64,000 nucleotides of DNA from Cupriavidus sp. AU9028 (lineage in GTDB: Bacteria; Pseudomonadota; Gammaproteobacteria; Burkholderiales; Burkholderiaceae), in contig NZ_JAIMCG010000016.1 in NCBI RefSeq assembly GCF_019795295.1, positions 56,195-120,194 on the forward strand, written 5' to 3'. The translations under genes and the position numbers were made by a program. Numbering within the stretch: position 1 is the first letter of the stretch; each line of letters starts with the position of its first letter. The notes under the pieces were generated by a model that did no database searches, was not told where the DNA came from, and was given only the letters and a program-made list of their open reading frames with translations. This document shows, piece by piece, positions 333 through 38,057 of this stretch.

Positions 333-417
333 GCGATGCGTCCTCACGCATCGAATCTCGCGCCGCCTCACGGGCACACACGCCCTCGTTTCCCTTCTTT
401 CCAGCGGCGCCTCTCAA
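333..417 (+). promoter_or_regulatory. RNA leader with box copy A
   Basis: Box at about 335-354: arms GCGT/ACGC around loop CCTC, followed by ATCGAA; the pairing can extend to CGATGCGT/ACGCATCG. A small GGGC/GCCC hairpin follows. This is one of eleven such boxes on the plus strand. No clear Shine-Dalgarno sequence is seen before the TTG at 418, so it may instead serve the gene at 571. Confidence 0.5.
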
Positions 418-519
418 TTGCTTCCCATCCTGAGCGTCTTTGCGTCATGCAATCTCGAGCATGTCGCAAGCGCGTTCGCGCTCGTCTTTGGATTCCTTGC
501 TCATTCGAGCATCGAATAG
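418..519 (+). CDS. Possible 33-aa membrane peptide
   Basis: A short frame opening with TTG behind leader A and ending in a TAG that lies within the next box. The product is hydrophobic (LPILSVFAS at the start, FALVFGFLA near the end) and could form one membrane segment. No ribosome binding site is visible, and the gene is too short for composition to be decisive. It is listed because a leader box precedes it; it may not be translated. Confidence 0.22.
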   Translation: MLPILSVFASCNLEHVASAFALVFGFLAHSSIE

Positions 520-570
520 TCGCCCGGCATCCGCCAGGCCATCCCTTTGTCTCGTTTCTTGAGAGAAACC
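499..570 (+). promoter_or_regulatory. RNA leader with box copy B
   Basis: Stem GCTC/GAGC (499-502, 507-510) with loop ATTC, followed by ATCGAA. The arms differ from the common GCGTC/GACGC but still pair, which is covariation. Downstream, GTTTCT/AGAGAAAC can fold just before the ATG at 571 and would cover its weak GAGAG ribosome binding site. Confidence 0.55.
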
Positions 571-876
571 ATGGAATCCTTCTTCTCCAACCTCATTCGG
601 CGTCCGTTCAAGCTGTTCATGCTTTGCTCGGTGCTCTATGTCGCTTCTCAGTCGTTCATCGTCGGCTTCTTCGTGGCCGTAGTGGCACTTCACCATCTGT
701 ACCGCCTGGCCTTCGCCCCGGGGAAGGCTAGCGTTACTGGATCCCAAGCTTCGGTTGCCGCCGCCTCTACTGGCGCGACGCCGGCAGCAACGGCAAGAGC
801 GGATGCCGAGCCCTCCTATGAGCGCTCGGCAGTCGTCACCCCGATTCGCCGCGCCGGGACGTCCGTTCCCTGCTGA
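571..876 (+). CDS. Small membrane protein, unknown function
   Basis: 101 aa if started at the ATG directly behind leader B; a TTG at 547 is in frame but lies inside the leader. Residues about 14-45 form one or two hydrophobic segments (LFMLCSVLYVASQSFIVGF), followed by an Ala/Thr-rich, probably cytoplasmic tail. No family is recognised. The leader type ties it to the element backbone rather than to a cargo gene. Confidence 0.6.
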   Translation: MESFFSNLIRRPFKLFMLCSVLYVASQSFIVGFFVAVVALHHLYRLAFAPGKASVTGSQASVAAASTGATPAATARADAEPSYERSAVVTPIRRAGTSVPC

Positions 877-883
877 TCCTTAG

Positions 884-971
884 CCGCCCCCGAGGGGCGG
901 TGCATACACCTGTCGCGGGTATCCGTTACCCGCCAGCTGGTGGGTCAATGGCCTTCCCGTCGGAGACCATC
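884..971 (+). promoter_or_regulatory. Structured leader without the ATCGA box
   Basis: Three consecutive hairpins: CCGCCCC/GGGGCGG (884-900), CGGGTA/TACCCG (916-932) and an imperfect ATGGCC/GGAGACCAT pair (948-970) that holds the GGAG ribosome binding site just before the ATG at 972. Confidence 0.5.
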
Positions 972-1400
972 ATGAACACGTTGGCAACAGGATGCCAATT
1001 CGACCTCTTTGGTGAAGCGGCCCTCGTCGCAATACCTCCTTATAAGCCCGACCCGTTGCCCGACCCGTCCCATTGGAGCGAGGCCGTGCGCGAGAAGATG
1101 GTCGACGCCCTCATCAGCCTTGCCTGTGATAGCCGGCGTGGCGACAACATGCCGGAATCGCTGATCGACTGCGCTGATTTGCTGCGCGCGCGTATCCGCA
1201 ATAGACACCTCGATCATGAGGAGTTGAGGATGACCCTGGGCTGGATCTTCGGCTATTGGGATGGCGCGCTGCCCTATCGGTACGTCTGCGCTGTGTCGGG
1301 CGTGAACCCCGAGACGCTGCAGGACGTCATCTTGAACAATGCCCGCCTTCGCAGTGACCTCGACGAGGTCAGGCGTATGTGTTGCGGCTCCCTACTTTGA
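972..1400 (+). CDS. Conserved backbone protein, unknown function
   Basis: 142 aa from the ATG at 972, which has GGAG eight bases upstream inside a hairpin; an in-frame ATG further upstream at 900 lies within the leader. The protein is soluble, acidic and mostly helical, with no motif I recognise (MNTLATGCQFDLFGEAA at the N-terminus). It is followed at once by the gene at 1409, so the two are probably co-transcribed. Confidence 0.65.
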   Translation: MNTLATGCQFDLFGEAALVAIPPYKPDPLPDPSHWSEAVREKMVDALISLACDSRRGDNMPESLIDCADLLRARIRNRHLDHEELRMTLGWIFGYWDGALPYRYVCAVSGVNPETLQDVILNNARLRSDLDEVRRMCCGSLL

Positions 1401-1408
1401 GGCAAGCC

Positions 1409-2203
1409 ATGACTTGGTTGAATTTGGTGAAGCGCGTCGCAACGCTCTTCCTCGAACGGCCCAAAGCCGCCGATGTGCCCGGCGCAGTTCCGGTCGGAAC
1501 TGGTGCCAGCAACGAGCGGCAGTTCATCGTCAACGGCATTCCACACCTCCTGCGCGATGAGGGCCACCGTATCGTCCACTTCGCTCCTAGCTTCGATCAT
1601 CGGATCGAGCCGACTGCTTACGGTGAGAAGTTGCTGCCCGACGTGGTGCCTCGTTGGGTACCGGTGGGGATTCACGCGGGCGCAAAAATGGAGATCGTCG
1701 CCGCCGGCGTTGTTAAGAACGCCGGCCTCGGAGACGCCTCGCCGGCCTGGTTGCCGGAAAGCAAGGGAACCAGCGCGCCCGTACGACGCGTGAGCCAATT
1801 GAGCGAGGAAACGCCGCCGAGTCGCAATGCTGCGGGCCCACAGGATAGTGGCACGGGCGCGACCTTGGTCCGGAAGCAGTTCTCACCTACGACGGTCGGT
1901 TCTCTCCTCGAGTGGGGTGAGATGGAGTTTCCGAATAGGAAGAGCCGCGGGCCGAGCACCTACCGGTCGTTCGCAGTGAAGCTGAGCACGGCGGAGGGTG
2001 AGCAGACTCTGCAGGGTGAAGGCTTGAAGGATGCGATTGCTGAGGCTCGTTGCCAACTCGGTGACCGTGTCGTTGTGAAGCGGCTACATAAGGTCAAGGT
2101 CCCTGCGTTCGATCAAAAGACCGGCCGACCGATCATGGACCGTGAGACCGGAGAACAGAAGCTCTGGGACAAGTGGACCTGGAGCATCAACCACATTCAT
2201 TGA
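1409..2203 (+). CDS. Unknown protein with relaxase/primase-associated C-terminal domain
   Basis: 264 aa from the ATG at 1409, preceded by GAGG; a GTG at 1379 is an alternative. The N-terminal part (to about residue 150) is unfamiliar. The last 90 residues (STYRSFAVKLSTAEGEQTL, then DAIAEARCQLGDRV and DKWTWSI) resemble the small domain often found at the C-terminus of plasmid relaxases and TraC-type primases (inference from memory of that pattern). It ends 12 bases before ssb, fitting a DNA-processing operon. Confidence 0.6.
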   Translation: MTWLNLVKRVATLFLERPKAADVPGAVPVGTGASNERQFIVNGIPHLLRDEGHRIVHFAPSFDHRIEPTAYGEKLLPDVVPRWVPVGIHAGAKMEIVAAGVVKNAGLGDASPAWLPESKGTSAPVRRVSQLSEETPPSRNAAGPQDSGTGATLVRKQFSPTTVGSLLEWGEMEFPNRKSRGPSTYRSFAVKLSTAEGEQTLQGEGLKDAIAEARCQLGDRVVVKRLHKVKVPAFDQKTGRPIMDRETGEQKLWDKWTWSINHIH

Positions 2204-2215
2204 AAGGAAAGCAAG

Positions 2216-2722
2216 ATGGCATCCGTGAACAAAGTCATCCTCGTGGGCAACCTCGGGGCCGACCCGGAAACTCGTTACATGCCTAGTGGCGACGCGGTAA
2301 CAAACGTTCGTATCGCTACTACTGATCGTTACAAGGACAAGCAGAGCATGGAGATGAAGGAGTTGACCGAGTGGCATCGGGTCGCCTTCTTCGGAAAGCT
2401 CGCTGAGATCGCGGGGCAGTACCTTCGTAAAGGCTCGCAGGTCTACATCGAAGGACGAATCCGCACGCGCAAATGGCAGGATCAGTCCGGCCAGGACAAG
2501 TACAGCACGGAGATCGTGGCGGACCAGATGCAGATGCTCGGCGGTCGTCAGCCGTCGGGCGGTTCTGACGATGGCAGCGACAGCGAGCAGCATGCCTCTC
2601 GGCAGCGGTCTCGGCCTGACGATCGGCGTGACGGCGGCTACAGAGCTCCTGATCGCCACCAAGGCCAGCGCACCGCTCCTTCAAACGGCTTTGAAGATAT
2701 GGACGACGATATTCCGTTCTAG
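2216..2722 (+). CDS. ssb: Single-stranded DNA-binding protein
   Basis: 168 aa, close to the usual SSB length. Residues 1-110 form the OB fold ([18 protein letters not shown], then [12 protein letters not shown] and [13 protein letters not shown]). A Gly/Ser/Arg-rich linker follows, and the acidic tip MDDDIPF is the docking site for repair and replication partners. The start is fixed by AAAGGAAA upstream. A plasmid-borne SSB commonly protects incoming single strands after conjugation and supports element replication. Confidence 0.97.
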
Positions 2723-2910
2723 GTCCGAGAGCTCTCTCGGATTGCCACGCAGGCGGCGCTGCCGCCTGCGCTTATCTCTCTTGCTGCCCCCTTCCCGGGG
2801 GCAGTTCCCATATAGCTGTGCTGTCCCCGCAGCTTCCCCTTTCTCTCCGCGCCATGCTGAAAAGAACGTCTGGATCATTCCCGGGCGGTCTTTTGAGCAA
2901 GCGTTCCTTC

Positions 2911-2952
2911 GCCTGTCTCAGGCATCGACCAACCCTCCTCACGGAGCATCCC
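2911..2952 (+). promoter_or_regulatory. Short RNA leader with box copy C
   Basis: Stem GCCTG/CAGGC (2911-2915, 2919-2923), loop TCT, then ATCGACC. The whole stem differs from the common GCGTC/GACGC yet still pairs, the clearest covariation in the set. Only 22 bases separate it from the ATG at 2953; a small CTCC/GGAG hairpin holds the ribosome binding site. Upstream at 2750-2810 two GC hairpins (GCAGGCGGC/GCCGCCTGC and CTGCCCCC/GGGGGCAG) follow ssb. Confidence 0.65.
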
Positions 2953-4023
2953 ATGAAAAATCTGAGTGCGATTGTAAGTAGCTGGACGCCCGATCAATGG
3001 GACGCTCTAGTGCGGCGGTATCTACCGGCTGACGTCCTTACTGACTCCTTCTGGAGGGGGCGGCCCGGCCCCTGTCCAATCTGTGGAGGAACGGATCGTT
3101 TCACCTACGACAATAAGCGCGGCCGCGGTGATTGGGTCTGTCGCAAGTGCAACGCTGGAAGCCCGAAAGCGGGCGACGGCCTCGAACTCGTCCGGTGCAC
3201 GACGGGCATGTCATACCTTGAGTTGAAACTGGCACTCAACGGTCAGCGGATCGATCCGGTAGCCCCGAGGCAGCTCGCGCAGGCGCGCCCTCGCAAGCCG
3301 GACGATCGGGCAGCGAAGGTGTTCCGCATCTCCAAACTGTGGCGAAGTGGAGCGGACCTGACGCCGGGAGACCACGCCATGCGCTATCTGGCTGCGCGGG
3401 TGCCAGGCCTCCGGGCGCCTCGGCCACAGAGTCTTCGCCTTGCAGTGCAGGACTACTGGCACGATCGGACGAAGATTGGCCGATACCCGACGATACTCGC
3501 CGGCTTTACGCTGCCAGACGGACGCCTGGCCACCGTGCATAGGACTTCACTAGATCCCCGCTCTCCTGCCAAAGCGGTCATCGTGACCGAGGAGGGCGAG
3601 ATCCTTCCAGCGAAGCGCAATGACGTCTCTGCGCTACCGCTTGCGGGCGGTGCCGTTCGGCTGATGCAACCGCGTGCGGGCGAAATCGGTGTGGCCGAAG
3701 GCCTCGAGAACGCCTACGCGTCCTACATGCTGTTTGGCATCCCAACGTGGAACTGCTTGAACCGAGTCCTGCTACGACAGTTTGTCGTGCCAGATGGCCT
3801 CGGCATCCATACCGTCCACATCTTCGCGGACTTTGACAAGATCGACAGCAGGACCGGCAAATCGCCCGGCATGGCTGACGCGCTTGCGCTGGAAAAGCGG
3901 CTGCGCGCTGAGGGCTACAAGACCATGCTGCATCGGCCGAAAGTCCGTGGCACAGATTTCTGTGACCAATGGCGAACGGTCTATCAGCTACGTCAGATGT
4001 CACAGCAAGCGGTGATCGCTTAA
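2953..4023 (+). CDS. Zinc-ribbon/Toprim primase-like protein
   Basis: 356 aa from the ATG after leader C. The N-terminal zinc ribbon is CPICGGTDRF...CRKC (Cys41, 44, 63, 66), as in phage P4-type primases. A Toprim domain lies in the C-terminal half with Glu249 (VAEGLENA) and the acidic pair Asp293/Asp295 (FADFDK). There is no helicase domain, so this is a stand-alone primase-like protein, likely used in element replication or transfer priming. Its place behind ssb supports that role. Family assignment is firm, exact role inferred. Confidence 0.85.
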   Translation: MKNLSAIVSSWTPDQWDALVRRYLPADVLTDSFWRGRPGPCPICGGTDRFTYDNKRGRGDWVCRKCNAGSPKAGDGLELVRCTTGMSYLELKLALNGQRIDPVAPRQLAQARPRKPDDRAAKVFRISKLWRSGADLTPGDHAMRYLAARVPGLRAPRPQSLRLAVQDYWHDRTKIGRYPTILAGFTLPDGRLATVHRTSLDPRSPAKAVIVTEEGEILPAKRNDVSALPLAGGAVRLMQPRAGEIGVAEGLENAYASYMLFGIPTWNCLNRVLLRQFVVPDGLGIHTVHIFADFDKIDSRTGKSPGMADALALEKRLRAEGYKTMLHRPKVRGTDFCDQWRTVYQLRQMSQQAVIA

Positions 4024-4057
4024 TACTCTCCACCGAAAGGTGGCTTCCTAAAACTCT

Positions 4058-4123
4058 GCCCGGTGGGTCCTCCCACTGGGCGAGGCTCCCGTGGCAGCTC
4101 TCTCCTCTCTCTGGAGGTCTGCA
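4058..4123 (+). promoter_or_regulatory. Structured leader of the gene at 4124
   Basis: Hairpin GCCCGGTGGG/CCCACTGGGC (4058-4081) is followed by a second pair, GCAG...CTCC with GGAG...CTGC (4094-4122), whose 3' arm is the GGAGG ribosome binding site. A further CCACC-GAAA-GGTGG hairpin precedes both at 4031-4043. Confidence 0.5.
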
Positions 4124-4333
4124 ATGCCGCAAAAAGGCTTTACCGCAATCGTCAACAAGCTCCACATCCGTGCCAAGCGCGTCTCGAACACCGAAGACGT
4201 CTCTGCGGGCCAGTCGGAAGCCCAGTTCTTCGATGTGTACCAGCGAGGCCCCTCGGGGAATCTGATGTTCCTGGATCGAAAGGATTCCTTCGACTCCGCA
4301 CTCGACTTTTGTCTTGCTCCAACGCTCCACTGA
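4124..4333 (+). CDS. Small unknown backbone protein
   Basis: 69 aa with a strong GGAGG ribosome binding site eight bases before the ATG. The protein is basic at the N-terminus (MPQKGFTAIVNKLHIRAK) and has no recognised motif. It is followed by a rho-independent terminator at 4354-4383, so the ssb-primase-side transcription unit ends here. Confidence 0.6.
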   Translation: MPQKGFTAIVNKLHIRAKRVSNTEDVSAGQSEAQFFDVYQRGPSGNLMFLDRKDSFDSALDFCLAPTLH

Positions 4334-4353
4334 AGCGGCATCCCTAGAATGAC

Positions 4354-4383
4354 AAAGCCCGGCTACCGCCGGGCTTTTTTTTT
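4354..4383 (+). terminator. Rho-independent terminator
   Basis: GCCCGGC-TACC-GCCGGGC followed by nine T residues; ends the plus-strand unit finishing at 4333. Confidence 0.9.
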
Positions 4384-4394
4384 GCGCCTTCGCC

Positions 4395-4520
4395 TCAGCG
4401 TAGCAACTTCTCCTTGACAGCGGCTACGATGGACAGCGCGCCCTCTAGGGCGCAGAAGCCGGCGAGGACAGCCAAGGCGAAGAGTAGAACGTCCTCGGTC
4501 GTGGAGAGGTAAGCAAACAT
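4395..4520 (-). CDS. 41-aa membrane protein
   Basis: A short minus-strand gene: MFAYLSTTEDVLLFALAVL, then AGFCALEGALSIVAAV and a basic end KEKLLR, giving one long hydrophobic segment. The ATG at 4520 has AGAAGGA upstream; the ATG at 4529 overlaps that sequence and is less likely. GC-rich third positions match neighbouring genes. It is the last gene of the minus-strand partition-like unit. Function unknown. Confidence 0.5.
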   Translation of the reverse strand: MFAYLSTTEDVLLFALAVLAGFCALEGALSIVAAVKEKLLR

Positions 4521-4596
4521 TTCGAGCATCCTTCTGGTTCGGTACGATATGGCCTAGGCTGACACGGGTTCATGTGGTGTCAACTCATCGAGCTGC

Positions 4597-5031
4597 CTAG
4601 CCGAAGCGCTCCATGGCGTTGTTGAGTGCCTGCAGATCGAGTCCACTGAGCGCATCGTCGTCGGTAACGCCAGGTGGCGGTTGGGTGGAGGCGTACGCAA
4701 GCCGGTAGACAGTAGCCCCATCTGGGGCCACGGCAGGAGCATTTGGCGCGTTCGCCTTTGGGGCAGCGAGCGGCGGTGGAGGCGGCGCCGCGGGGGGCGG
4801 GTGAAGTGCGCCGTGTGCTGGGACGGTCGGGACCGCCGTTCGGCTCGGGGCGACGAGCAGTCCGTCCACGCCCGCGCTGGCGAGCAGCTGCAGGCCTCGC
4901 TGTGCGAGGAGCCTGAGCATCAGCGCACGCTCCCGCGCTCCGCGGAACTGCCGGAGATACGCAAGCAGCTCGGGGTTCGAGTCCTCGGATATCGTAACGG
5001 ACATCTGAAGCTTGTCGATGGATGCTTGCAT
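4597..5031 (-). CDS. Possible ParR/StbB-like partner of PRTRC protein D
   Basis: 144 aa; its ATG overlaps the stop codon of the actin-like gene (TGATG), so the two are translationally coupled. Residues 1-50 (KLQMSVTISED, then LLAYLRQFRGARERALMLRLL) resemble the strand-helix-helix start of small plasmid partition adaptors. The rest is a Pro/Ala-rich linker and a short acidic tail. By analogy with ParM-ParR, it would bind centromere DNA and the filament. This is inferred from context and pattern, not from a recognised family. Confidence 0.55.
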   Translation of the reverse strand: MQASIDKLQMSVTISEDSNPELLAYLRQFRGARERALMLRLLAQRGLQLLASAGVDGLLVAPSRTAVPTVPAHGALHPPPAAPPPPPLAAPKANAPNAPAVAPDGATVYRLAYASTQPPPGVTDDDALSGLDLQALNNAMERFG

Positions 5032-6032
5032 CAGGTATTCCTCGTGGCTTGCCGGGCAGAGCCAATGCTGTAGAACCCACGAACGTTCGCGAAGCAGGGT
5101 GCGTCCATAATATGGATCGTGTTCAGCGGAAAGGCCGCGCGAATTGTAGGTGCGTAGAGCTGTGCACCACCGCCGGTCAGGATGATCGCCCGGATATCCT
5201 CAGAGCGGCCAACACGTGTCTGTATCTCCTTCACAGGCTGATGAGTGACTGCCATGGCCTGCTCGAGATAAGGGGAGATGTCGAGGTCCTGCCCGTAGAA
5301 CAACATGGGCTTGGCATCGCGGATGGCCTTGTCGATACGCTCGATACTGTCTGTTGCCTGTCCCAGGTGCGAGGAGATCAGGCTGGCGATCTGCTGATAG
5401 ACCCGCGCCGCGCCGCCGGGGACGCCGCCACTGCGGGTGTCATCCATCGTGTACCCCCGGGCGACAACCCAGTCGGTCGTGTAGTAACCCACGTCAACAA
5501 CGAGGTAGGCATTGTCAGGGTCATAGCTCTTGCCAGTCCGTTGAATGTAGGTAATCAGACTGCCGAGCGGCTGAGGAAGGGGCAGGACGCTCCCAATCTT
5601 GATCTCGCCCCAGCCGAAGTTGTGCACGCCTGAAAACCGGTCTTTAAGATAGGCCGCGTACTTGTTCGTGTTATGGACCGGCAGACCGAGCACGAGGCGG
5701 TCCACTTCTCTCGCCTTAGCATAGTGAAGGGAGCCGGCGAGCAGCGCCGCGTAATTCGGCGTCGTGACGAAGTCCTCGGAAAGCGAGCGGCCCGTATGGA
5801 CGTGCGCAGCGCTCAGAGAAACATCCGGTCCCACTTCGTACCTGGCGCCGTCGATCTCCACATGCACTACGTCACGGGCACGGAAGAGGCCGCCACCGTG
5901 CGGAGTGAGTGAGGAAGTGGCGGCTACTGGAGCAAGGGAAGGAAACATTCGGGTTGCAACATCAGACCCGAGGGGAAAGGCGGATTTGGTGTTGCCGTAG
6001 CCAACGTCGACAGCGACGGTCGAGATCTTCAT
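5031..6032 (-). CDS. PRTRC system protein D, actin-like ATPase (ParM/StbA type)
   Basis: 333 aa. Actin-fold nucleotide motifs are clear: VDVGYGNTKSAF at residues 8-19, VVDVGYYTTDW in the middle and ILTGGGAQLY near residue 290. PRTRC D proteins belong to the ParM/StbA group, which polymerise to push plasmid copies apart. TGGAG lies eight bases before the ATG. It heads a minus-strand unit with a possible adaptor gene and lies apart from the main PRTRC block at 18-24 kb. Confidence 0.88.
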   Translation of the reverse strand: MKISTVAVDVGYGNTKSAFPLGSDVATRMFPSLAPVAATSSLTPHGGGLFRARDVVHVEIDGARYEVGPDVSLSAAHVHTGRSLSEDFVTTPNYAALLAGSLHYAKAREVDRLVLGLPVHNTNKYAAYLKDRFSGVHNFGWGEIKIGSVLPLPQPLGSLITYIQRTGKSYDPDNAYLVVDVGYYTTDWVVARGYTMDDTRSGGVPGGAARVYQQIASLISSHLGQATDSIERIDKAIRDAKPMLFYGQDLDISPYLEQAMAVTHQPVKEIQTRVGRSEDIRAIILTGGGAQLYAPTIRAAFPLNTIHIMDAPCFANVRGFYSIGSARQATRNT

Positions 6033-6336
6033 GTGGTGCTCCAGTTCGGTTGCTGTTTGTTGAGAGGCGATGCGAAGATGCCGGCACGGTCCCTGACAAT
6101 CCCATTAAGTGGGAGATAGTCCGATCTGCTCTCGCTTTGAACCAGTGAGACGACGACCGAAGTCGGACATCGTCGAATATGGGCGGCAGTGACCGGACTG
6201 TGTTCGGGTATGTGGCACATCGACATAGCCGACTCTACCTGCGGAAAACCGAAGTCAAGTCGCCAAAAGCTCTCGATTTCAAGGGGCCAAACGTTGCCAC
6301 CCAAGCGAGGGCTGGTATATCCTTCGACGATCAACC

Positions 6337-6453
6337 GCGTCCCCGACGCATCGACCTCGCCGCCGTTCGCGCGGCAACTCACATCCACCGGGCGCTGAAT
6401 TCGCTACCCGGCGGATGCCTGTCCAAGCCGCAAAATGACGCGGCATTTTTTTG
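6337..6453 (+). ncRNA. Orphan box copy D followed by a terminator
   Basis: Perfect box GCGTC-CCC-GACGC then ATCGACC at 6337-6356, GC hairpins after it, and a terminator (GCCGC...GCGGC then ATTTTTTT, 6426-6453). Only a 7-codon frame lies between. It may be a stand-alone RNA of the leader family, or a leader whose gene was lost. Confidence 0.4.
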
Positions 6454-6479
6454 TTTCGGCTCAAGTAGATACTGGCCCA

Positions 6480-13916: not shown

Positions 13917-14474
13917 ATGTCTTCACCCCGCCGTCATGCCGTTCACGAAGTCTCCCTTGGGACCCGGCCCAGTCGAGAGACGCAGTTCGTCTCGCCTGGC
14001 GACCCACAGTATGAGGAGATCGCTCGGCTAGATGCGTTTGCCTTCAGGCGCTATCTCGATCGAGTGTTCTGGTACCCACGCCGGGAGGTGGTTTGCTTTG
14101 AGGTCCGCGCTGTGCCGTCCCGAGATGGAAAATTCTACGACGTCGTGGCGGTGGTGGCAGTGGGCGAGGGCGAGGCTTGGTTCTCTGCCGATGCGGTACC
14201 AGACAGGTGGGACTTCGTTGCCCTCAGTGAGATCATGCATGGCCTCTCCGTCATGGAGGGGAGGGCGTGGGGGCCCGGCCGGGAAGCGCCTGGCGATGTG
14301 CCGCGCATCAACGCGAGTGAAGTCTTTGACTCTTCTCGTCTAGAAGACCCAGACGAGGCGCAATCACGCCGGTGGGCGGTGATCAACCGAGTGCGCGAGG
14401 CAAGCAGGCAGCGGCGCGGTCGCCGCTTCGGGCGGCCAGTCAATACCTTGAATCGGACTATCGATTCGCAGTAA
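13917..14474 (+). CDS. Unknown protein
   Basis: 185 aa, starting MSSPRRHAVHEVSLGTRP. The middle has a strand-rich stretch (VVCFEVRAV, VVAVVAVGEGEAWF) and the C-terminus is basic (RQRRGRRFGRP). Divergent from the DUF1173 run. No recognisable motif, and no strong ribosome binding site. Confidence 0.5.
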   Translation: MSSPRRHAVHEVSLGTRPSRETQFVSPGDPQYEEIARLDAFAFRRYLDRVFWYPRREVVCFEVRAVPSRDGKFYDVVAVVAVGEGEAWFSADAVPDRWDFVALSEIMHGLSVMEGRAWGPGREAPGDVPRINASEVFDSSRLEDPDEAQSRRWAVINRVREASRQRRGRRFGRPVNTLNRTIDSQ

Positions 14475-14491
14475 TATTCGACCGAATCTCC

Positions 14492-14587
14492 GCGCTTGCA
14501 GCGCATCGACACAGCCGTACACCGGCCATTTCCTTTCACCCATTGGGGCTTTCCCAATGGGACGGCTCCATCATTTTGGAGCCTGTC
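14492..14587 (+). promoter_or_regulatory. RNA leader with box copy E
   Basis: Box GCGCT-TGC-AGCGC then ATCGACA (14492-14511), again a stem with changed but pairing bases. It is followed by CCCATTGGG/CCCAATGGG (14539-14561) and GGCTCC/GGAGCC (14564-14583); the latter hides the GGAG ribosome binding site. GGGGCT in the first loop can pair with the same GGCTCC arm (with G-U pairs). Confidence 0.7.
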
Positions 14588-17929: not shown

Positions 17930-17959
17930 TTGATCACCTCTAAAGTTCTTTGGTATGCT
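17930..17959 (+). promoter_or_regulatory. Sigma70-type promoter of the PRTRC operon
   Basis: TTGATC (17930-17935), an 18-base spacer, then TATGCT (17954-17959) with an extended TGG before it. The transcript would begin near 17966, only a few bases before box copy F. Confidence 0.5.
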
Positions 17960-17972: not shown

Positions 17973-18129
17973 GCGTCCCTGACGCATCGACTCCGCACCG
18001 GCAGGTGCTAGTTTTCTTTCTGTACGGTGGCTGCCCGCATTTCGCGGCATGCCGCTCCTATCTATCCCACCGGGAACCACGTTCCCGGTGCGGCAACGGG
18101 TTCCCCATTCCTCTTCGGAGAACCCACAA
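17973..18129 (+). promoter_or_regulatory. RNA leader with box copy F, upstream of PRTRC ParB
   Basis: Box GCGTC-CCT-GACGC then ATCGACT. Hairpin CACCGGGAA/TTCCCGGTG (18068-18090) is followed by GGGTTC..CC/GGAGAACCC (18098-18125), which covers the ribosome binding site. GGGAACC in the first hairpin (18072-18078) is complementary to GGTTCCC (18099-18105) in the second, an alternative pairing. Confidence 0.7.
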
Positions 18130-20595: not shown

Positions 20596-20622
20596 GAGCC
20601 GCCCGAGAGGGCGGCTTTTTTT
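20596..20622 (+). terminator. Terminator/attenuator inside the PRTRC operon
   Basis: GCCGCCC-GAGA-GGGCGGC followed by seven T residues, after protein C and only 20 bases before the start of protein F. Confidence 0.85.
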
Positions 20623-24480: not shown

Positions 24481-24555
24481 CAAGTGGTCGAGCACGGTAC
24501 TGTCACAGGATGCTCGCCAAGGTGAGCGAGCATTGGTAGAATCGTCGGACCATCC

Positions 24556-24663
24556 GCGTCAACGACGCATCGACCCTTCCGGCTATTTGCCGGACAGCTT
24601 TTTTTCCCCACTATGGGCTTCCACGCCCATAGGCATGGTGGCCCATCTTTTTATGAGGCCGTC
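24556..24663 (+). promoter_or_regulatory. RNA leader with box copy G
   Basis: Box GCGTC-AAC-GACGC then ATCGACC (24556-24575). CTATGGGC/GCCCATAG (24611-24632) is followed by GGCC.AT/AT..GGCC (24640-24660), which holds the GAGG ribosome binding site. ATGGGC of the first hairpin can also pair with GCCCAT (24641-24646). Confidence 0.7.
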
Positions 24664-25137: not shown

Positions 25138-25138
25138 A

Positions 25139-25693: not shown

Positions 25694-25794
25694 GCGTCAT
25701 TGACGCATCGACCAATGTCCGGCGCTGCCGGACCAACCCATTGCGGGACACTCGTCCCGTTTGGGAGGGATGTCCCCATTCCCGAGGATATCCC
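25694..25794 (+). promoter_or_regulatory. RNA leader with box copy H
   Basis: Box GCGTC-ATT-GACGC then ATCGACC (25694-25713), preceded by TTTTCACC. CGGGAC/GTCCCG (25744-25759) is followed by GGGATGTCC/GGATATCCC (25767-25794), the latter abutting the ATG and covering its ribosome binding site. Confidence 0.7.
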
Positions 25795-26657: not shown

Positions 26658-26659
26658 GT

Positions 26660-26828: not shown

Positions 26829-26856
26829 AACGCACCCTGCGGGGTGCGTTTTCATT
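26829..26856 (+). terminator. Terminator
   Basis: CGCACCC-TGCG-GGGTGCG followed by TTTTC, between the small membrane genes and the gene at 26965. Confidence 0.7.
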
Positions 26857-26913: not shown

Positions 26914-26964
26914 TCCCACTGGGGCACGCTCCCCGGTGGGATCGTGCTCCTCCAGGAGCGCACA
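26914..26964 (+). promoter_or_regulatory. Two-state hairpin leader of the gene at 26965
   Basis: CCCACTGGGG/CCCCGGTGGG (26915-26940), then GTGCTCC with GGAG..CAC (26944-26963) covering the ribosome binding site. GGGGCACG (26921-26928) can pair instead with CGTGCTCC (26943-26950), with one G-U pair. No ATCGA box is seen here. Confidence 0.7.
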
Positions 26965-28521: not shown

Positions 28522-28526
28522 ACTCT

Positions 28527-28556
28527 CCCCTGGCCGCGAGGCCGGGGGATTCTTTT
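28527..28556 (+). terminator. Terminator
   Basis: CCCC-T-GGCC-GCGA-GGCC-G-GGGG followed by ATTCTTTT, immediately after the gene ending at 28521. Confidence 0.8.
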
Positions 28557-28675: not shown

Positions 28676-28787
28676 GCGTCACCGACGCATCGACCCCAAC
28701 GCCGGCATGCCGGCTTATCTCTTGAACCTTCCCACAGGGACCATCCCTGTGGGGGCGGCCTGTGGGATATCCAATCTGGACAATCCC
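28676..28787 (+). promoter_or_regulatory. RNA leader with box copy I
   Basis: Box GCGTC-ACC-GACGC then ATCGACC (28676-28695), preceded by TTTCACCC. Hairpins GCCGGCATGCCGGC (28701-28714) and CCCACAGGGA/TCCCTGTGGG (28731-28753) come next. GGGATATCC/GGACAATCCC (28764-28787) abuts the ATG. GGACCATCCC of the second hairpin can pair with the same GGGATATCC arm. Confidence 0.7.
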
Positions 28788-30840: not shown

Positions 30841-30847
30841 GGTCGCC

Positions 30848-32011: not shown

Positions 32012-32113
32012 TGCCGCCGGTATCGCTATCCGCTTCTTGAGCTTCTCCTCTAACAGCCTCAAGCGTCCTACTGGTGTGCCGATCTCAGGTACCACAGTAG
32101 TCCGTTGACGGCT

Positions 32114-32147
32114 CCAGCCCCGGCACGTCCGGGGCTCTTCTTTTTTC
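32114..32147 (+). terminator. Terminator
   Basis: AGCCCCGG-CACGT-CCGGGGCT followed by CTTCTTTTTT, after the VWA gene. Confidence 0.85.
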
Positions 32148-32234
32148 TCGTTGCTACGTCCGCCTGCCGGTTCACGACCCAGGCGCAGTAGCGGCGGGCC
32201 GTCGTGGGTAGGCGGCGTAGTGCTGGAGCTGCGC

Positions 32235-32600: not shown

Positions 32601-32603
32601 AAA

Positions 32604-32634
32604 AAGCCCGGCGTAAGCCGGGCTTTTCTTTTTG
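32604..32634. terminator. Bidirectional terminator
   Basis: AAGCCCGGC-GTAA-GCCGGGCTT with T runs on both sides, between convergent genes ending at 32600 and 32681. Confidence 0.88.
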
Positions 32635-32680
32635 TCGAAAGGAACTGCTATAGCAGTGCGTTTCCGTCGGCAAGTCAATA

Positions 32681-33070
32681 TCAGGATATTGGCTCTGGTG
32701 CTGTCCGTGCCGCCGCGCTGTTGGTCTCGTCATGCCCAATGAGCGGCGTGCGCGAGAGGGTGACACCTTTGAGGTCTGCATCGGCGCCAAGTCGGATAGT
32801 GCCGCCGTAGAGGACCTGACCCGTTACGCGGCCGTTCAGCAATACCGATGAGAGGGCTCTGATCTCACCCTCCACGGTTCCGTCGACGATGACGTGTTCC
32901 GCATGCACATCGCCTCGGATCACGGCTCCTCTTGCCACGTGGACAAGTCCTCGAGAGCTTTTCACATCGCCAAGCACCAAGCCCATGCAAGTCATCCCAT
33001 GGTCGCTGACGATGTTGCCTTCCACCGTGAATCCGGCCTGTACCAGGCTGAAGTATGGACTATCGCTCAT
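32681..33070 (-). CDS. Bactofilin (polymer-forming cytoskeletal protein)
   Basis: 129 aa. Repeating beta-helix strands with valine and glycine every few residues (GNIVSDHGMTCMGLVLGDV, AVIRGDVHAEHVIVDGTV, LNGRVTGQVLYGG) are diagnostic of the bactofilin/DUF583 fold. Bactofilins polymerise without nucleotide and scaffold membrane proteins. The neighbouring single-span membrane protein is the likely partner. Plasmid-borne bactofilins are uncommon. Confidence 0.87.
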   Translation of the reverse strand: MSDSPYFSLVQAGFTVEGNIVSDHGMTCMGLVLGDVKSSRGLVHVARGAVIRGDVHAEHVIVDGTVEGEIRALSSVLLNGRVTGQVLYGGTIRLGADADLKGVTLSRTPLIGHDETNSAAARTAPEPIS

Positions 33071-33078
33071 AGTGCCCC

Positions 33079-33675
33079 TTAGAAGAGTCTGATCTCACCG
33101 CCAGCCGTGTTTTGTTTCTGAGGCACAACTGCTGCGCGGGATGTCGCCTCTTGCTTCCGTACCTCCGATGCAGGCTCTTTCTGCGCCGGCGGAGTAGGGC
33201 GCGCTTTGGGCTCCGGCGCGGTTTGCACGACAGGACGCTGCGGCGGGGCCTTAGATGGGGAGGGCGCTGGATTCGAGGCCGCATCGCTCTCCGGGTGCGG
33301 CACTGCCGCTTCCACTTCAGCAACGGAGGGGGTGTCCGGCCACCGCGTACTCGATGCTTCGAGGCCCCCATCCCGCTGACGCTCTGTGTCAATCGCCGTC
33401 GCCTGCACGGCAGGAACGGCGTTCGATTGCTTGGTTGCGGATGCGATGAACATGCCGACGGGCAGGGCAATGGCAGCGACGAGCACCATCATGAGAATCA
33501 CCTTTCGGTTCTCGATGAGGTATGCGCCATGTGCGCGTTTCCCATCGGCCTGCTCACCGCGGGACCGCGCCTTCGGGGCAGGGAGTGCCGCGGCTATGGG
33601 GGCAGCTTCCACGTCAATGGTTAGAGGTCCCTGCGCGTATTGCTCGTGCAGGCGCTGGATGTCGCGAAGATCCAT
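33079..33675 (-). CDS. Single-span membrane protein with Pro-rich periplasmic domain
   Basis: 198 aa from the second ATG (33675), which has GAAGGA six bases before it; the ATG at 33681 overlaps that sequence. A cytoplasmic N-terminal part (1-57), one membrane helix (KVILMMVLVAAIALPVGMFI, about 58-80) and a Pro/Ala/Glu-rich outer part. Sits between the helical protein and bactofilin, eight bases before the latter. Probably anchors the bactofilin polymer (inference). Confidence 0.7.
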   Translation of the reverse strand: MDLRDIQRLHEQYAQGPLTIDVEAAPIAAALPAPKARSRGEQADGKRAHGAYLIENRKVILMMVLVAAIALPVGMFIASATKQSNAVPAVQATAIDTERQRDGGLEASSTRWPDTPSVAEVEAAVPHPESDAASNPAPSPSKAPPQRPVVQTAPEPKARPTPPAQKEPASEVRKQEATSRAAVVPQKQNTAGGEIRLF

Positions 33676-33677
33676 GG

Positions 33678-34298
33678 TCATTCCTTCGTTGAGCCGCTGG
33701 CCTTCTGCGGTACGCGGCTGCCGTCCTGTGCGAACTTGTCGTTGTCGGGTATGCAGAGAATGTGAATCTGGGAAACCAGCTTCGCCGCACGGCGGAGCAC
33801 CTCTTCCCTCTCAGCTCCGGAGACCGACCCTGCAGCGTTGCAGAACATCGTCGACGCGAACAGCCGATCATAGAGACGCACAAGTCTGAGGAGGCGCCCG
33901 GCAAACTGGTGCGTCAATTTGACCGGAATCTCCATGTAGGCGAGGGGGAACTCGATTTGGTGCCGCTCAGCGAAGTCCGCCAGAGCGGTGGCGTACCACG
34001 ACTCGGCCTCCCGGAAGGCTTCGTCGAGCGCCTTCACCTTTCCACCGCGCGCTACGGTGAATTTCGCCGAGCAGAAGTACAGATTCGCGTCTAGGAAGTC
34101 GCGGGCGAACCTGGAGCAGTATGACGCGACGGCTCCGGTGTCCGTATGCGGGACGATGCGCGAAAGCCGGCCATCACTGTTGAATTTATCGATTCGGCGC
34201 AGTCCAGCCGCCGCCGCGGCGCTGTCGGTCCCGCTTATGACGGACCCCCGTGGCAACCCCGGCTCGATCGCTGTTTGGGTGTGCGATTCTTCAGCCAT
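33678..34298 (-). CDS. Helical protein, DUF1845/AcaB-like
   Basis: 206 aa. RIDKFNSDGRLSRIVPH and a long helical region (YCSRFARDFLDANLYFCSAK, then KLVSQIHILCIPDNDKFA) recall proteins grouped as DUF1845 or AcaB on conjugative elements, some of which are regulators. The match is from memory and moderate. First gene of the bactofilin operon; its stop overlaps the region of the next start. Confidence 0.55.
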   Translation of the reverse strand: MAEESHTQTAIEPGLPRGSVISGTDSAAAAAGLRRIDKFNSDGRLSRIVPHTDTGAVASYCSRFARDFLDANLYFCSAKFTVARGGKVKALDEAFREAESWYATALADFAERHQIEFPLAYMEIPVKLTHQFAGRLLRLVRLYDRLFASTMFCNAAGSVSGAEREEVLRRAAKLVSQIHILCIPDNDKFAQDGSRVPQKASGSTKE

Positions 34299-34436
34299 TT
34301 TTCCATGTTATGACGATCTCTCTCCCTGCAATTGTGGGCGCGTGCACCCCGATCTTTTTAGCGAAAGCTATATGAAAATAGCGAGAATTCGCCATTCCCG
34401 TTGGGAAGGCACGTGCCACAATTCACTCCACACCTC

Positions 34437-34543
34437 GCGTCACTGACGCATCGACCCTGACTCGTAGCGAGTCCATCTCTTGCTTCAAGTCGTGCATATT
34501 GCGCACGCGCCGACCGGTTGGCTACCGGTGTGGAAATTCCCTT
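34437..34543 (+). promoter_or_regulatory. RNA leader with box copy J
   Basis: Box GCGTC-ACT-GACGC then ATCGACC (34437-34456). Three hairpins follow: ACTCG/CGAGT (34460-34472), GTGC/GCAC (34492-34506) and CCGGT/ACCGG (34514-34528). GGAA lies before a GTG at 34544. Confidence 0.65.
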
Positions 34544-34750
34544 GTGATAAGTGACTTCGCCGAGCACTTCCCATGTCAGCTCGTAAAACGCGTCTCTGTT
34601 GTGCCTCTCTATGAGAGCACGCGGACACTGTTCGAGCCTGGGACCATGTGGCGTCTCTCTCAGGCCCCTCCTAGGCAGAACAGCCGTCGTTGGCTGACCC
34701 GTGATTCCTGCGGTGGACGTTTGTCCAAAATGGGTTGTTGTGCAGCGTGA
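34544..34750 (+). CDS. Small Cys/Arg-rich unknown protein
   Basis: 68 aa with a GTG start chosen by its distance from leader J. Segment SVVPLYESTRTLFEPGTMW is well-formed; the C-terminus is basic and Cys-rich (RDSCGGRLSKMGCCAA). No family recognised. An ATG at 34573 in another frame gives only 13 codons. Confidence 0.45.
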   Translation: MISDFAEHFPCQLVKRVSVVPLYESTRTLFEPGTMWRLSQAPPRQNSRRWLTRDSCGGRLSKMGCCAA

Positions 34751-35092
34751 TCGTGCTGCACGAGGGCGACTTTACGTCCTCAGCATGAGCATCGTGCCCT
34801 GTGCGCCTTGCTCCCTGAGTGCCACGCCCCCGGAAGGGGCGTGGCGCTTCAGGTTTCTCGACAAAGCTCGCTTTCCGGCGCATCCGGGACGCGGGCTTTT
34901 TTTGTTTCCGGTTTCTGCTTAGCCGCTTCTTGCGGTGACCCAATTCAGCTTCACGCATGATCCCATGCGTGGAAAAGGCTCATTTTTCAACCAGCGACCC
35001 AGCGCGGGGCAGACACAGCCTCGCGCCCTTGCGGCCGTGCTGCGTCTCCTCGGGCGAACGTCCATTCGTTTCCCATCCGACAGGAGGAAAGC
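34751..35092 (+). other. Intergenic region with hairpins and a terminator
   Basis: GCCACGCCCC/GGGGCGTGGC at 34821-34845, then a terminator-like AAGC.CGC...GCG.GCTTTTTTT at 34864-34905. A weak variant of the box (CTCA-GCA-TGAG then CATCG) lies near 34780. No convincing gene. Confidence 0.5.
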
Positions 35093-36385
35093 ATGCATGC
35101 TCCCATAACCTACAACGGCTTCGAAGGCCCGAGAAGCCTGCTCGATGAACGGCCCATGCGGCCACCTATCATCGGCACCATCCGCCCCGGTATCAAAGTC
35201 CTAACGCGCAAAGCACGGGACAACCCTGAGGCGGTCAGGATTCATGACATGTTGCTGGCCCAAGGGCATTCGTTCGAGAAGATCGGTGCGGAGATCGAAC
35301 GCAAGACAAACCTGCGCAACGCGCTAGTTCCGAAGAATGTTCCGTGGTTCACGTGCCGCGGTTCGGACTTCACGAACCCCGCAATCGCAGACGACATCCT
35401 GCAACGCTACGGTGAGGACCGAGGGGATGGGAACGGCCACCGCCTTTGGCGCTTCCCGGTGGTTTTCGCATTCGACGACTGGCTACAGAACATGCCTAAC
35501 CAGCTCGTCGCGTATGCCACGAGCGGAAAGCAGTTCTTCTCGGAATACGGACCTGATGGCTTGCGCTACTGCAAGACGTATGGGGCTCTGCCGAGAGACG
35601 AACGCGCCAGCCGGGCAAGGCGCGTCTGGGGCGGTCGGCCGATCATTCTGAGGCAGGACGACGCCATCCCGGACGGCCGGTGCGATCCCCATAGCTGTCC
35701 GCAGTACCAGAAGGGGGATTGCAACCTTTCCGCGTCGTTCTATTTCGCGATTCCTGCCAGCCGCGGGCTTGGCTTGATCAAGATGCCGACGACGTCGATC
35801 TACGTCCTCCAGAAGGCGCACGCAGCCATGCAGACGGTGGCGCTAGCGCGCGGCCGCCTGGTAGGTGTCGAGTTCACGATCGGCAAGCAGGAAGTTGAGA
35901 TCAGCCGCATCGACCTGGAGTCCGGTCGGCCGGTACGCCAGAAGCAGTGGCTGATCACGCTTGATGCGGATCTGGACATGGCAGGACTTCTGGACGGCTC
36001 CGATCGTGCACGCATACCGCATGGTATGGCGGCATCTGAAGCGGTTGCGGCCCTCTCTGGCGAAGGCCATTCATCGGCCGAAGAGCCGAATCTGGCAGAA
36101 GCCGACGAGCCGAAGGCGGATGAGTCCGGTTCGGGAACGGAGCTTGACCCGGATGAAGACCTCCGGGCCGCTTTCGATCAGGCCGCGAAAGGCCTGGGCT
36201 TCCATGAGAGCACCCAAGCCCAACGGGAGCTGCGCACCTTCCTCAAGGAAAGCTACGGAGAAGGATGGAATCACCGTCCTACGTGTATCCGGCAGATCGT
36301 GAAGGACATGCGCGCGGCCCTCGCTCACAGCCCTCTCGAGTACCGCCAGAAAGTGAAAGCGGTTGCTACTGAAGTTTCTTCCTGA
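35093..36385 (+). CDS. Recombination-directionality-factor-like / metal-binding protein
   Basis: 430 aa with GGAGGAAAGC before the ATG. IGTIRPGIKVLTRKARDNPE, NVPWFTCRGSDFTNP and a Cys motif CDPHSCPQYQKGDCNL (Cys197, 202, 209) match a family on large conjugative elements annotated as hydrolase or metal-binding, related to phage Gp3-type recombination directionality factors. The C-terminal third is acidic and then helical. It precedes the SbcD/SbcC-like pair, consistent with recombination. Family membership is from memory. Confidence 0.7.
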   Translation: MHAPITYNGFEGPRSLLDERPMRPPIIGTIRPGIKVLTRKARDNPEAVRIHDMLLAQGHSFEKIGAEIERKTNLRNALVPKNVPWFTCRGSDFTNPAIADDILQRYGEDRGDGNGHRLWRFPVVFAFDDWLQNMPNQLVAYATSGKQFFSEYGPDGLRYCKTYGALPRDERASRARRVWGGRPIILRQDDAIPDGRCDPHSCPQYQKGDCNLSASFYFAIPASRGLGLIKMPTTSIYVLQKAHAAMQTVALARGRLVGVEFTIGKQEVEISRIDLESGRPVRQKQWLITLDADLDMAGLLDGSDRARIPHGMAASEAVAALSGEGHSSAEEPNLAEADEPKADESGSGTELDPDEDLRAAFDQAAKGLGFHESTQAQRELRTFLKESYGEGWNHRPTCIRQIVKDMRAALAHSPLEYRQKVKAVATEVSS

Positions 36386-36484
36386 GACCGGCTCCCTGTT
36401 AGGGTCCGGTAGGCGGGCGCGCTAGCGCGCTCGCTGTCCTTTTCTCGCCGCGCTCGTCGGCATATCAAACCATTTGGAGGTCCT

Positions 36485-37894
36485 ATGGACAACGAGGGCG
36501 AGAGCCTGCGTCTATGCCACTTCTCAGATTTGCACTATTCCCCGGGCCACCTTGCGGAGTCCGACCGTTGCTTCGGTTTTGCAGTGGAGCACGCAATCGA
36601 GACCGGCTGTGAGGTTGCAGTGGTTTCGGGAGACTCGACCGATCATCGGCTTGACGCTCATACGCCCGCGCTGGCCGCGCTTGCTCGGCGCATCCACCAG
36701 CTCTCGTCGCACATGCCGGTGGTAATGCTACAAGGTACCTTCAGTCACGAGCCGCCCGGCACGTTGGATATCTTCGGCCTTATTGGGGAGCGTCATCGAG
36801 TCTACGTTGCGGATCGGATCCACCAGGTGGCTCTCTGTGGAGGAACATTCGTACCGTCGGTTGGAGCCGTCTTCACAGCTGCAAAGCTTCAGCAGCTGAT
36901 CGTTGATGAGGGCGAGCCCGAGGTGGTGTTCACATGTGTGCCCACCGTCAATAAGGCAGTACTGGCTTCGGCAGTAGGAGTAACGCTGGCCCCCACGGCT
37001 CTTGGCGATCATCTGAGTGCGTACCTAGAGGCCGCTGGCGTCGTCAATCAACAGTTACGGCGGATGGGCGTCCGAACCGTCGGGATTTCCCACGGTACTG
37101 TTAATGGCTGCCAAACAGAGCACGGCGTCCCTATGGCGGGTTTCGACCACGAATTCACGATCGGCGCGCTGTTCGAGGCGAACTGTGACGCCTTCATGCT
37201 TGGCCATATCCATCGTGCCCAGCAATGGGAGCGGGAGGGACGCGTCGTTGCGTATCCCGGTTCCATTGGGCGCTTTCACTATGGGGAGCTAGGCGACAAG
37301 GGCTACCTGAAGTGGGAGGTTAGCGCCGGAAGGGCCTCGGCATCTCTAGTCCCGACGCCGGCTCGCGAGACCGTCTGTCTCGATTTCGATGGACCTCCCG
37401 ATATGGAGCGCCTGGCGGCGATGGCGGAAGAAGCCGCCGGCAAGTTCGTTCGCTTACGGTGGACGGTTGATGAGGAGCATCGCCAAGTGATCGACCGAGA
37501 GGCGATCACGGCTCTATTCGGAAAGTCTGCCGACCTGAAGCTCGAGGCTCGTGTCCTGCCCGCCGTGCGCAGTAGGGCCGAGGGCATCAGCCGGGAAACC
37601 AGCGTACCGGAGAAGCTCGCGCGGTGGGGCGAACTGACCGCAGTGGACACCAACCCGTTGCTGGAACGCTTAACGATGCTTCAGACGCTTGATGCTGAAT
37701 CCATTGTTGAGCGTGTACTGGCACACCTGGACGTCGGGGATGCTAGCTCGCAGCTGAACTCCGTCGCCGATGTGCCCGAAGCTTCCCCTCCGACGGCGAA
37801 CGGCGGAGACAAGCCACGCCAGCCCGCCACCCCCGCGGAGAAGTCAGGGATGGATTGGCTGACCGATGATCTTTTTGCGGATGCTTCCGCCTAA
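36485..37894 (+). CDS. SbcD/Mre11-like metallophosphoesterase
   Basis: 469 aa with GGAGG upstream. Metal motifs: FSDLHYS (Asp15, His17), SGDSTDH (Asp50, Asp53), ISHG and LGHIH (His241, His243). The expected GNHD is replaced by QGTFSHE (84-89), losing the usual Asn ligand. SbcD-type enzymes form a nuclease with the SbcC ATPase, here the gene at 38558. Activity may be altered by the changed motif. A Pro/Ala-rich tail ends the protein. Confidence 0.82.
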   Translation: MDNEGESLRLCHFSDLHYSPGHLAESDRCFGFAVEHAIETGCEVAVVSGDSTDHRLDAHTPALAALARRIHQLSSHMPVVMLQGTFSHEPPGTLDIFGLIGERHRVYVADRIHQVALCGGTFVPSVGAVFTAAKLQQLIVDEGEPEVVFTCVPTVNKAVLASAVGVTLAPTALGDHLSAYLEAAGVVNQQLRRMGVRTVGISHGTVNGCQTEHGVPMAGFDHEFTIGALFEANCDAFMLGHIHRAQQWEREGRVVAYPGSIGRFHYGELGDKGYLKWEVSAGRASASLVPTPARETVCLDFDGPPDMERLAAMAEEAAGKFVRLRWTVDEEHRQVIDREAITALFGKSADLKLEARVLPAVRSRAEGISRETSVPEKLARWGELTAVDTNPLLERLTMLQTLDAESIVERVLAHLDVGDASSQLNSVADVPEASPPTANGGDKPRQPATPAEKSGMDWLTDDLFADASA

Positions 37895-37957
37895 CCCTTG
37901 GACATGCAAGCCATGTTCCGACAGCCGAAGAGGCTGTCGAAACCCGGTTTCACCCCC

Positions 37958-38057
37958 GCGTCTCTGACGCATCGATATGCAGTAACCAACACCATCTTAT
38001 CTACCCTGGCGGGGTGCTCTCCGTCAGGGGTGCACTCCGTCATTCTTGGAGTGCATC
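37958..38057 (+). promoter_or_regulatory. RNA leader with box copy K
   Basis: Box GCGTC-TCT-GACGC then ATCGATA (37958-37977), preceded by TTTCACCC. CCCTGGCGG/CCGTCAGGG (38004-38029) is followed by TGCACTCC/GGAGTGCA (38031-38055), a perfect 8-bp stem over the ribosome binding site. GGGGTGC (38011-38017) can pair instead with GCACTCC (38032-38038). Confidence 0.75.

Follow-up and report, generated by a model that had tools for sequence, protein, structure and literature searches.

The stretch of DNA analyzed here (the window) comprises 64,000 nucleotides of a Cupriavidus sp. AU9028 contig. It represents the PRTRC core of an element, either plasmid or integrated, in a Burkholderiaceae genome. 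Its core genes encode ParB, PRTRC proteins, SSB, a primase-like protein, an N6-methylase, an AAA protein, and VWA-like, SbcC-like, and SbcD-like proteins. Eleven copies of a short box, in which a hairpin with GC...GC outer ends (hairpin 1) is followed by ATCGA, lie among these genes, all on the plus strand. The boxes are best explained as the earliest structured element in the predicted 5′ mRNA leaders of a plasmid-wide regulon. Sequence comparison shows that hairpin 1 and ATCGA are conserved and usually followed by a second hairpin of free sequence (hairpin 2), that the copies are many and confined to one strand of one region, that their stems covary, and that predicted terminators lie between the genes of boxed blocks.

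On the plus strand of the window, hairpins of at least five pairs followed by ATCGA occur 10 times, against a mean of 0.62 and a maximum of 3 in 50 dinucleotide shuffles. Two matches to the same pattern on the minus strand differ in sequence, and a search of that strand of the window for boxes of the GC...GC type found none. One of the ten plus-strand matches (15496) lies in the coding sequence of the N6-methylase and was taken as chance. A first-pass annotation of the sequence had listed all eleven boxes, on this strand and in these places, with inner stem pairs that change in step, as they do in the window; only its first box needed correction, as the box exists but has a 4-bp stem at 338–349 rather than one at 335. 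Nine boxes have five-pair stems, and those at 338 and 499 have four.

Boxes 1 (338..354; GCGT-CCTC-ACGC; 20.0 bits with model R1) and 2 (499..515; GCTC-ATTC-GAGC) stand in tandem ahead of a likely start codon at 571, with only an ill-placed −10-like hexamer (spacer 6) before box 1; a similar tandem pair occurs in plasmid pMSMB608 (locus L038, 27901 and 28061). Box 3 (2911..2928; GCCTG-TCT-CAGGC; hairpin 2 at 2935–2946, 4 bp) precedes the primase-like gene (likely start codon 2953). Next come boxes that follow −10-like hexamers: box 4 (6337..6354; GCGTC-CCC-GACGC; TATCCT at 6318–6323; hairpin 2 at 6359–6375), box 5 (14492..14509; GCGCT-TGC-AGCGC; TAATAT at 14472–14477; hairpin 2 at 14514–14526, 4 bp), box 6 (17973..17990; GCGTC-CCT-GACGC; TATGCT at 17954–17959; hairpin 2 at 17995–18008), which belongs to the leader of the PRTRC ParB gene, with 18130 as likely start codon, and box 7 (24556..24573; GCGTC-AAC-GACGC; TAGAAT at 24537–24542; likely start codon 24664), whose hairpin 2 (24578–24594) is followed by CAGCTTTTTTT. 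Box 10 (34437..34454; GCGTC-ACT-GACGC; CACAAT at 34417–34422; hairpin 2 at 34459–34473) opens a long leader that includes an sbcD RNA. Boxes 8, 9, and 11 belong to an intercistronic class. Box 8 (25694..25711; hairpin 2 at 25717–25733; likely start codon 25795) is flanked upstream by an inverted-repeat-rich stretch and TTTTCACC; box 9 (28676..28693; hairpin 2 at 28701–28714), with TTTCACCC upstream, lies in the leader of the AAA ATPase (likely start codon 28788); box 11 (37958..37975; likely start codon 38058) has GGTTTCACCCCC upstream and no second hairpin by the criterion used. TTTCACC precedes these three of the eleven boxes, in agreement with the annotation's remark that several copies follow it.

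Start codons in the window were chosen by analogy with annotated relatives. By this choice, seven boxes (499, 2911, 17973, 24556, 25694, 28676, and 37958) begin 42–157 nt before an ATG. The first-pass annotation had placed nearly all boxes at short distances from genes, which holds for these seven; the box at 338 lies 233 nt from the start codon that it shares with the box at 499, and the next long gene is about 650 nt away from the boxes at 34437 and 6337. In relatives, a small annotated gene lies 99 and 108 nt beyond the counterpart of box 14492.

The annotation had also proposed a search of related plasmids. Our first comparison set consisted of regions of 12 named plasmids; pHG1 and pMOL28 were added later. 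In whole records, model R1 (E 0.01) has 8–14 matches on each of 10 Burkholderiaceae plasmids (Cupriavidus, Burkholderia, Paraburkholderia, Caballeronia, and Robbsia), with 8–13 of them on one strand of one region of 31–78 kb and 0–2 weaker ones elsewhere. At the same threshold, the whole Simplicispira record (L039) has no match and the Variovorax record (L040) has one weak match. The 41 kb examined of each of pHG1 and pMOL28 contain 7 and 8 boxes, respectively, with one coding pMOL28 match and three minus-strand matches excluded. Boxes occur at similar positions ahead of the same genes across plasmids; on the whole of pMSMB608, they precede methylase, ParB/PRTRC, AAA, and SbcC-like genes, among others, and its type IV secretion system (T4SS) and pilus operons have none.

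In the searches made, clusters of boxes are limited to Burkholderiaceae, with single matches elsewhere. Of 300 genomes sampled from the order, 13 contain the exact pattern, 10 of them outside the window's own family (a reversed control matched 2 genomes). Two genomes of the window's genus have 7 and 8 copies, two others have 2 each, and the rest have 1. Model R1 at E 0.001 matched 70 of 249 genomes of the family, 35 of them at least four times and the others 1–3 times, mostly weakly; at E 1e-5, it matched 1 of 274 genomes in a sample of the class, the window's own. Two genomes (G493 and G499) have 19 and 20 R1 matches and perhaps carry two elements each. A pattern scan of genome contigs returned at least 119 stretches; among the 80 of 119 listed, 69 are Burkholderiaceae by name and 11 are single matches outside this family. 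Viral contigs yielded 10 stretches with one pattern match each.

Covariation was assessed in 80 boxes from the window and the named plasmids, a set selected for pairing, in which 98.2 per cent of the cells of the five stem pairs are paired and 22 changes on both sides are seen, compared to 3.2 in shuffled data. Match 15496 and nine matches in related plasmids were left out of this set as coding, by eye; one of the nine (L037 10552), which has a −10 and scores 27.9 bits, is likely a true box and was included in the later sets. Box-like matches on the minus strand were excluded from box counts. Because the 80 boxes had been picked for pairing, we recounted with anchors for which inner pairing was not demanded, but only the outer GC...GC and context (175 anchors, 136 after removal of near-identical ones). 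At least four positions are paired in 128 of the 136; the remaining eight resemble noise from coding sequence or the minus strand, with the exception of L032 15620, which in its full context (−10, tail) is likely a true box with a C-A mismatch at the fourth stem pair. Dropping 10 of the 136 anchors left a non-redundant set of 126 boxes. In that set, a second hairpin with a stem of at least five pairs is present in 102 boxes (25 per cent in shuffled sequences), beginning 3–4 nt past ATCGA in 66 of the 102 and followed by TTTT within 10 nt in 31.

A palindrome such as GCGTC-N3-GACGC could also serve as a DNA operator, bound by a repressor or activator dimer just past the transcription start. On IncP plasmids, global regulators bind palindromic operators near the transcription start. 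Such an operator should have fixed half-site spacing and two-fold symmetry, neither of which was found: the spacer is 3, 4, or 5 nt (63, 16, and 1 of 80 boxes, respectively), stem changes are paired rather than one-sided, and, across the window and 12 loci, the ATCGA tail is attached to 59 of the 66 GCGTC-N3/4-GACGC palindromes on the plus strand but to none read from the other strand. A second hairpin is likewise not accounted for by an operator. The covarying stem, the variable loop length, the one-sided tail, and the second hairpin therefore favor RNA over DNA, and we regard the boxes as very probably an RNA leader element. The same features bear out the earlier proposal of an element-wide, RNA-level tag. 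At the box positions, Rfam families give no match, even at E 10.

The position of the boxes relative to predicted promoters points in the same direction. For 49 of the 80 boxes, the distance from the end of a −10-like hexamer to the box is 13 or 14 nt, and an exact TANNNT lies at 13 nt in 33 of the 80 (0.26 per cent of random places). In the larger set, a −10-like hexamer lies 12–14 nt upstream of 100 of the 126 boxes, which is not an unbiased rate because the anchors had to show either such a hexamer or a TTTCACC-type sequence upstream; yet 90 of these 100 have A at −7, a base that played no part in choosing them. Given this geometry and the A at −7, the box is predicted to start about 7 nt into the transcript. 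The first-pass annotation had made its RNA interpretation depend on boxes not lying upstream of transcription starts, and the predicted starts do precede them. The other 26 boxes have no well-placed −10 and lie between genes, after a TTTCACC-type sequence. Cappable-seq has been applied to C. metallidurans CH34 (PMC9045368); main-text passages on CH34 list no transcription starts for these genes. On pMOL28 of that strain (NC_007972.2/CP000355, minus strand), starts are predicted within 2 nt of 93739, 90669, 84558, 83384, and 75119, each 7 nt ahead of a box; the three intercistronic boxes (82669, 78876, and 71408) would have no primary start but perhaps processed ends. For Burkholderia cenocepacia J2315, we found no convincing box within the 50 of 92.7 kb of its plasmid that were examined, so the transcription-start paper for that strain is of no help.

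In 32 Burkholderia-type promoters, we derived an activator-like motif, GAAAGC-N16-GCTTTC, that ends 21–22 nt before the −10 with its flank. Because such sites are also found at box-less T4SS operons, the box is a layer separate from them. An FlhC-family gene is present on 10 of 12 records. At four places (L036 25269 and 35926; L038 6322 and 27737), three of them at box-less operons, a near-palindrome similar to TTAACCGGTTAA comes after the activator-like site and may be a further operator used throughout the plasmid. At the edge of the window (position 72, minus strand) lies an activator-like site with a high score (32.9). That other plasmid operons carry a different palindrome near the same activator-like site, and that the box palindrome keeps a fixed distance from the −10, would suit a DNA operator; the 26 copies without a well-placed hexamer would not, and with the structural evidence above they make this explanation rather improbable. 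The idea of chance matches or of a spreading, functionless REP-like repeat, to which a short motif in many copies might give rise, is hardly credible given the comparable places that copies take ahead of shared genes on different plasmids, the pairing kept while loops vary freely, the fixed promoter geometry, and the lack of minus-strand copies in the window.

The hairpins might instead act in the incoming T-strand during conjugation, as an Frpo/ssi-like promoter or priming site that turns on establishment genes in the recipient. The boxed genes resemble a leading region, the boxes lie on one strand, and PMC7736820 treats plasmid methylases and Frpo together. A folded −35 region of the Frpo kind is not general here, however: the mean stem at −35 is 4.24 pairs in 55 promoters and 3.85 in shuffled sequences, so the promoter is not folded as in Frpo, although single promoters with a −35 hairpin exist (8 pairs at window position 24556). 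In addition, pENH92 and pBB2, typed as non-mobilizable, keep 9 and 11 same-strand matches. We consider this explanation improbable. Frpo and ssi (PMC11541004) resemble the boxes as folded elements before establishment-type genes in one orientation, but Frpo folds the −35 and −10 themselves, whereas the box fold is downstream of the predicted start.

What is new here is that predicted intrinsic terminators lie between the genes of boxed operons. Terminators (at least 6 stem pairs and 6 of 8 T) were counted in gaps of 25–500 nt, together with the final 30 nt of the gene before the gap, in the boxed blocks of 9 loci (without the window, L030, L032, and L104) and, for comparison, in T4SS and pilus blocks at 7 loci from 6 plasmids. 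Sense-strand terminators are predicted in 41 of 105 gaps of boxed blocks and in none of 525 shuffled gaps. Of the 41 gaps, 29 hold no box, and in 14 of these 29 only 17–27 nt separate the terminator's end from the start codon that follows, so that a promoter would scarcely fit. The T4SS and pilus blocks have terminators in 1 of 12 gaps (1 of 80 gene pairs), a side of the comparison that is small because few gaps there reach 25 nt (12 of 80 gene pairs, vs 105 of 166 in boxed blocks). In the boxed regions of 12 loci, 91 terminators lie on the box strand and 3 on the other, a bias that is partly expected because most genes there run on the box strand. Downstream of 36 of 74 boxes (11 loci), an internal terminator lies ahead of a further gene; one further coding match of pMOL28 was left out of this count and of the 47-leader pairing count below. 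The counted gaps of the box-less relatives hold none (0 of 20 in L039, 0 of 1 in L040).

Among the terminators predicted on the plus strand of the window, one (20597..20616) lies between PRTRC genes, 26 nt before the start of PRTRC F (20643), in a gap with no box; this C–F gap is a recurrent terminator site in relatives and the window. A second (26830..26849) lies downstream of box 8, ahead of an open reading frame at 26944, and a third (28526..28549) upstream of box 9. Two further, terminator-like stretches were not flagged by the scans: GCCGC...GCGGC-ATTTTTTT (about 6427–6452; 5-bp stem), between box 4 and an integrase-like gene (6994), whose counterparts in L033, L036, and L041 are flagged by the scan, and a GC-rich stretch followed by TTTTTTT (34880..34905, plus strand), between the sbcD RNA and a recombination-directionality-factor-like gene (35093).

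Antitermination systems require terminators inside operons that open with a leader RNA. We propose that the box is a leader RNA that brings about antitermination in the manner of HK022 put or pLS20 conAn, a reading to which we assign a probability of roughly 45 per cent. As expected for processive antitermination, terminators occur in the operons that would be controlled and hardly in the others. Several points weigh against the proposal, besides the small T4SS sample, the partly expected strand bias, and the upstream context demanded of the 126 boxes. By the criterion used, 38 of the 74 boxes have no strong internal terminator downstream, and the counts include orthologous leaders and terminators from several plasmids, which are not independent cases. 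Outside the counted gaps, L039 has 2 terminators on the plus strand and 1 on the minus strand, and L040 has 5 and 8; moreover, only part of the gene content of the boxed blocks is found in L039. In later hairpins, 9 G-U and 6 A-C mismatches do not decide between RNA and its complement. A NusG-type factor (PF02357) is absent from all 11 plasmids searched, and none of the 126 boxes has a boxA or ops GGCGGTAG (a shortened ops occurs in 2); a lambda-type nut system or one based on a NusG paralogue (RfaH, LoaP) was rejected on these counts.

The principal competing explanation is that hairpin 1 and AUCGA, near a primary or processed 5′ end, form a tag for translation or stability, which either shields the mRNA or recruits a regulator acting on hairpins in the Shine-Dalgarno region, with terminators only setting gene ratios. 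The hairpin does lie about 7 nt from the predicted start, and processing might take place at the TTTCACC-type sequence before intercistronic copies. Among 61 leaders, the predicted folds often contain two more hairpins, the last one around the Shine-Dalgarno sequence. In 19 of 40 leaders, the 5′ part of the third hairpin can pair over at least 6 nt with an arm of that last hairpin (12 per cent of swaps); with distinct arms, the proportion is 11 of 47 (7.7 per cent). Many leaders nevertheless have no alternative pairing, the presence of terminators in boxed blocks and their near absence from T4SS blocks would go unexplained, and of two RNA-binding families searched for on 11 plasmids, CsrA is found on none and ProQ on one. 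We judge a 5′-end tag unlikely, if still to be reckoned with.

Under the antitermination reading, transcription would start about 7 nt before the box at promoters with a TANNNT-like −10, which in many Burkholderia-type plasmids are predicted to have the activator-like motif GAAAGC-N16-GCTTTC upstream of them. In the transcript, hairpin 1, AUCGACC, and hairpin 2 may then bind or reshape RNA polymerase, alone or with a factor, and the modified polymerase would read through the terminators inside the operon. Intercistronic boxes would re-load the machinery past a terminator, and spurious transcripts without the tag would stop at the first one, resulting in tight control of establishment-type genes (SSB, primase, methylase, PRTRC, and SbcCD-like). 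The later hairpin pair around the Shine-Dalgarno sequence might add translational control in a subset of leaders. It is possible, if doubtful, that Gram-negative conjugative plasmids and their relatives thus carry a put-like, RNA-based processive antitermination regulon in which one RNA cassette stands at about ten operons, is re-loaded between genes, and acts as a "password" for establishment genes that host-derived or spurious transcripts lack. If so, about ten natural copies per plasmid, pMOL28 and pHG1 included, would provide a comparative set on RNA acting on polymerase, and the coordination of the uncharacterized core of PRTRC plasmids would be explained. Even with another role, the tag defines a large 5′-leader regulon. 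The first-pass annotation had contained neither the second hairpin, the Shine-Dalgarno-region hairpins, and the promoter-less intercistronic class nor the internal terminators and the sbcD RNA in a boxed leader.

Its statement that no described motif matches the boxes holds for Rfam. The "Burkholderiales-1" motif of 2010 (PMC2864571), restricted to Burkholderiales and without an Rfam number in the table, could be compared by its table line only. Among the top literature matches, no title or abstract beginning describes the box, subscription journals and supplements being outside the scope of the search. Because of this partial scope and the table-line comparison, our claim of novelty is limited to that literature and Rfam 15.

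The sbcD RNA (RF01757; 34707..34856, plus strand; 136.5 bits, gathering threshold 40) lies 270 nt downstream of box 10. It was published as a candidate RNA in 2010 (PMC2864571). Exactly one copy is present on each of the 11 box plasmids searched and none on two box-less ones; within this plasmid family, it may function as a section of the leader or as a small RNA. It shares its plasmids with the box and lies downstream of one, but has a distinct, 155-position structure. Pairing of the box tail with it was rejected, as the complement of ATCGACC occurs in none of the long leaders (9 loci) and none of 10 sbcD RNAs; the best pairings of the box consensus with it span 7–8 nt outside the tail core. 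Adjoining the boxed block is a gene for a DarT-like ADP-ribosyltransferase (41098–41811; 24.5 bits, Pfam cut-off 22.5), and beside the core lie a LigD-like ligase and a Y-family polymerase with an IMS domain (47385–52517). On the same side, L029 and L031 have imuA, a Y-family polymerase, and an error-prone polymerase.

Among known systems, HK022 put is an RNA structure in the early phage transcript that acts through RNA polymerase and is not known to need another factor. The boxes resemble it as RNA structures that would lie early in the transcripts of terminator-crossing operons, with no NusG-type factor on 11 plasmids and with two hairpins in 102 of 126 boxes, the transcript position here being predicted. 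They differ in having about 9 nt between the hairpins and about ten copies per element, some of them intergenic; the likeness is drawn from description. According to PMC8955417, the antitermination factor is RNA in only two named systems (put and EAR), besides the two-part conAn. The conjugative plasmid pLS20, as described there, has many intrinsic terminators inside operons and an antitermination element, conAn, at the operon start, as proposed for the box plasmids, but it is Gram-positive and has one long conjugation operon with one conAn. The box plasmids, by contrast, have many short operons, each with its own box, and their T4SS blocks are box-less with hardly any internal terminators.

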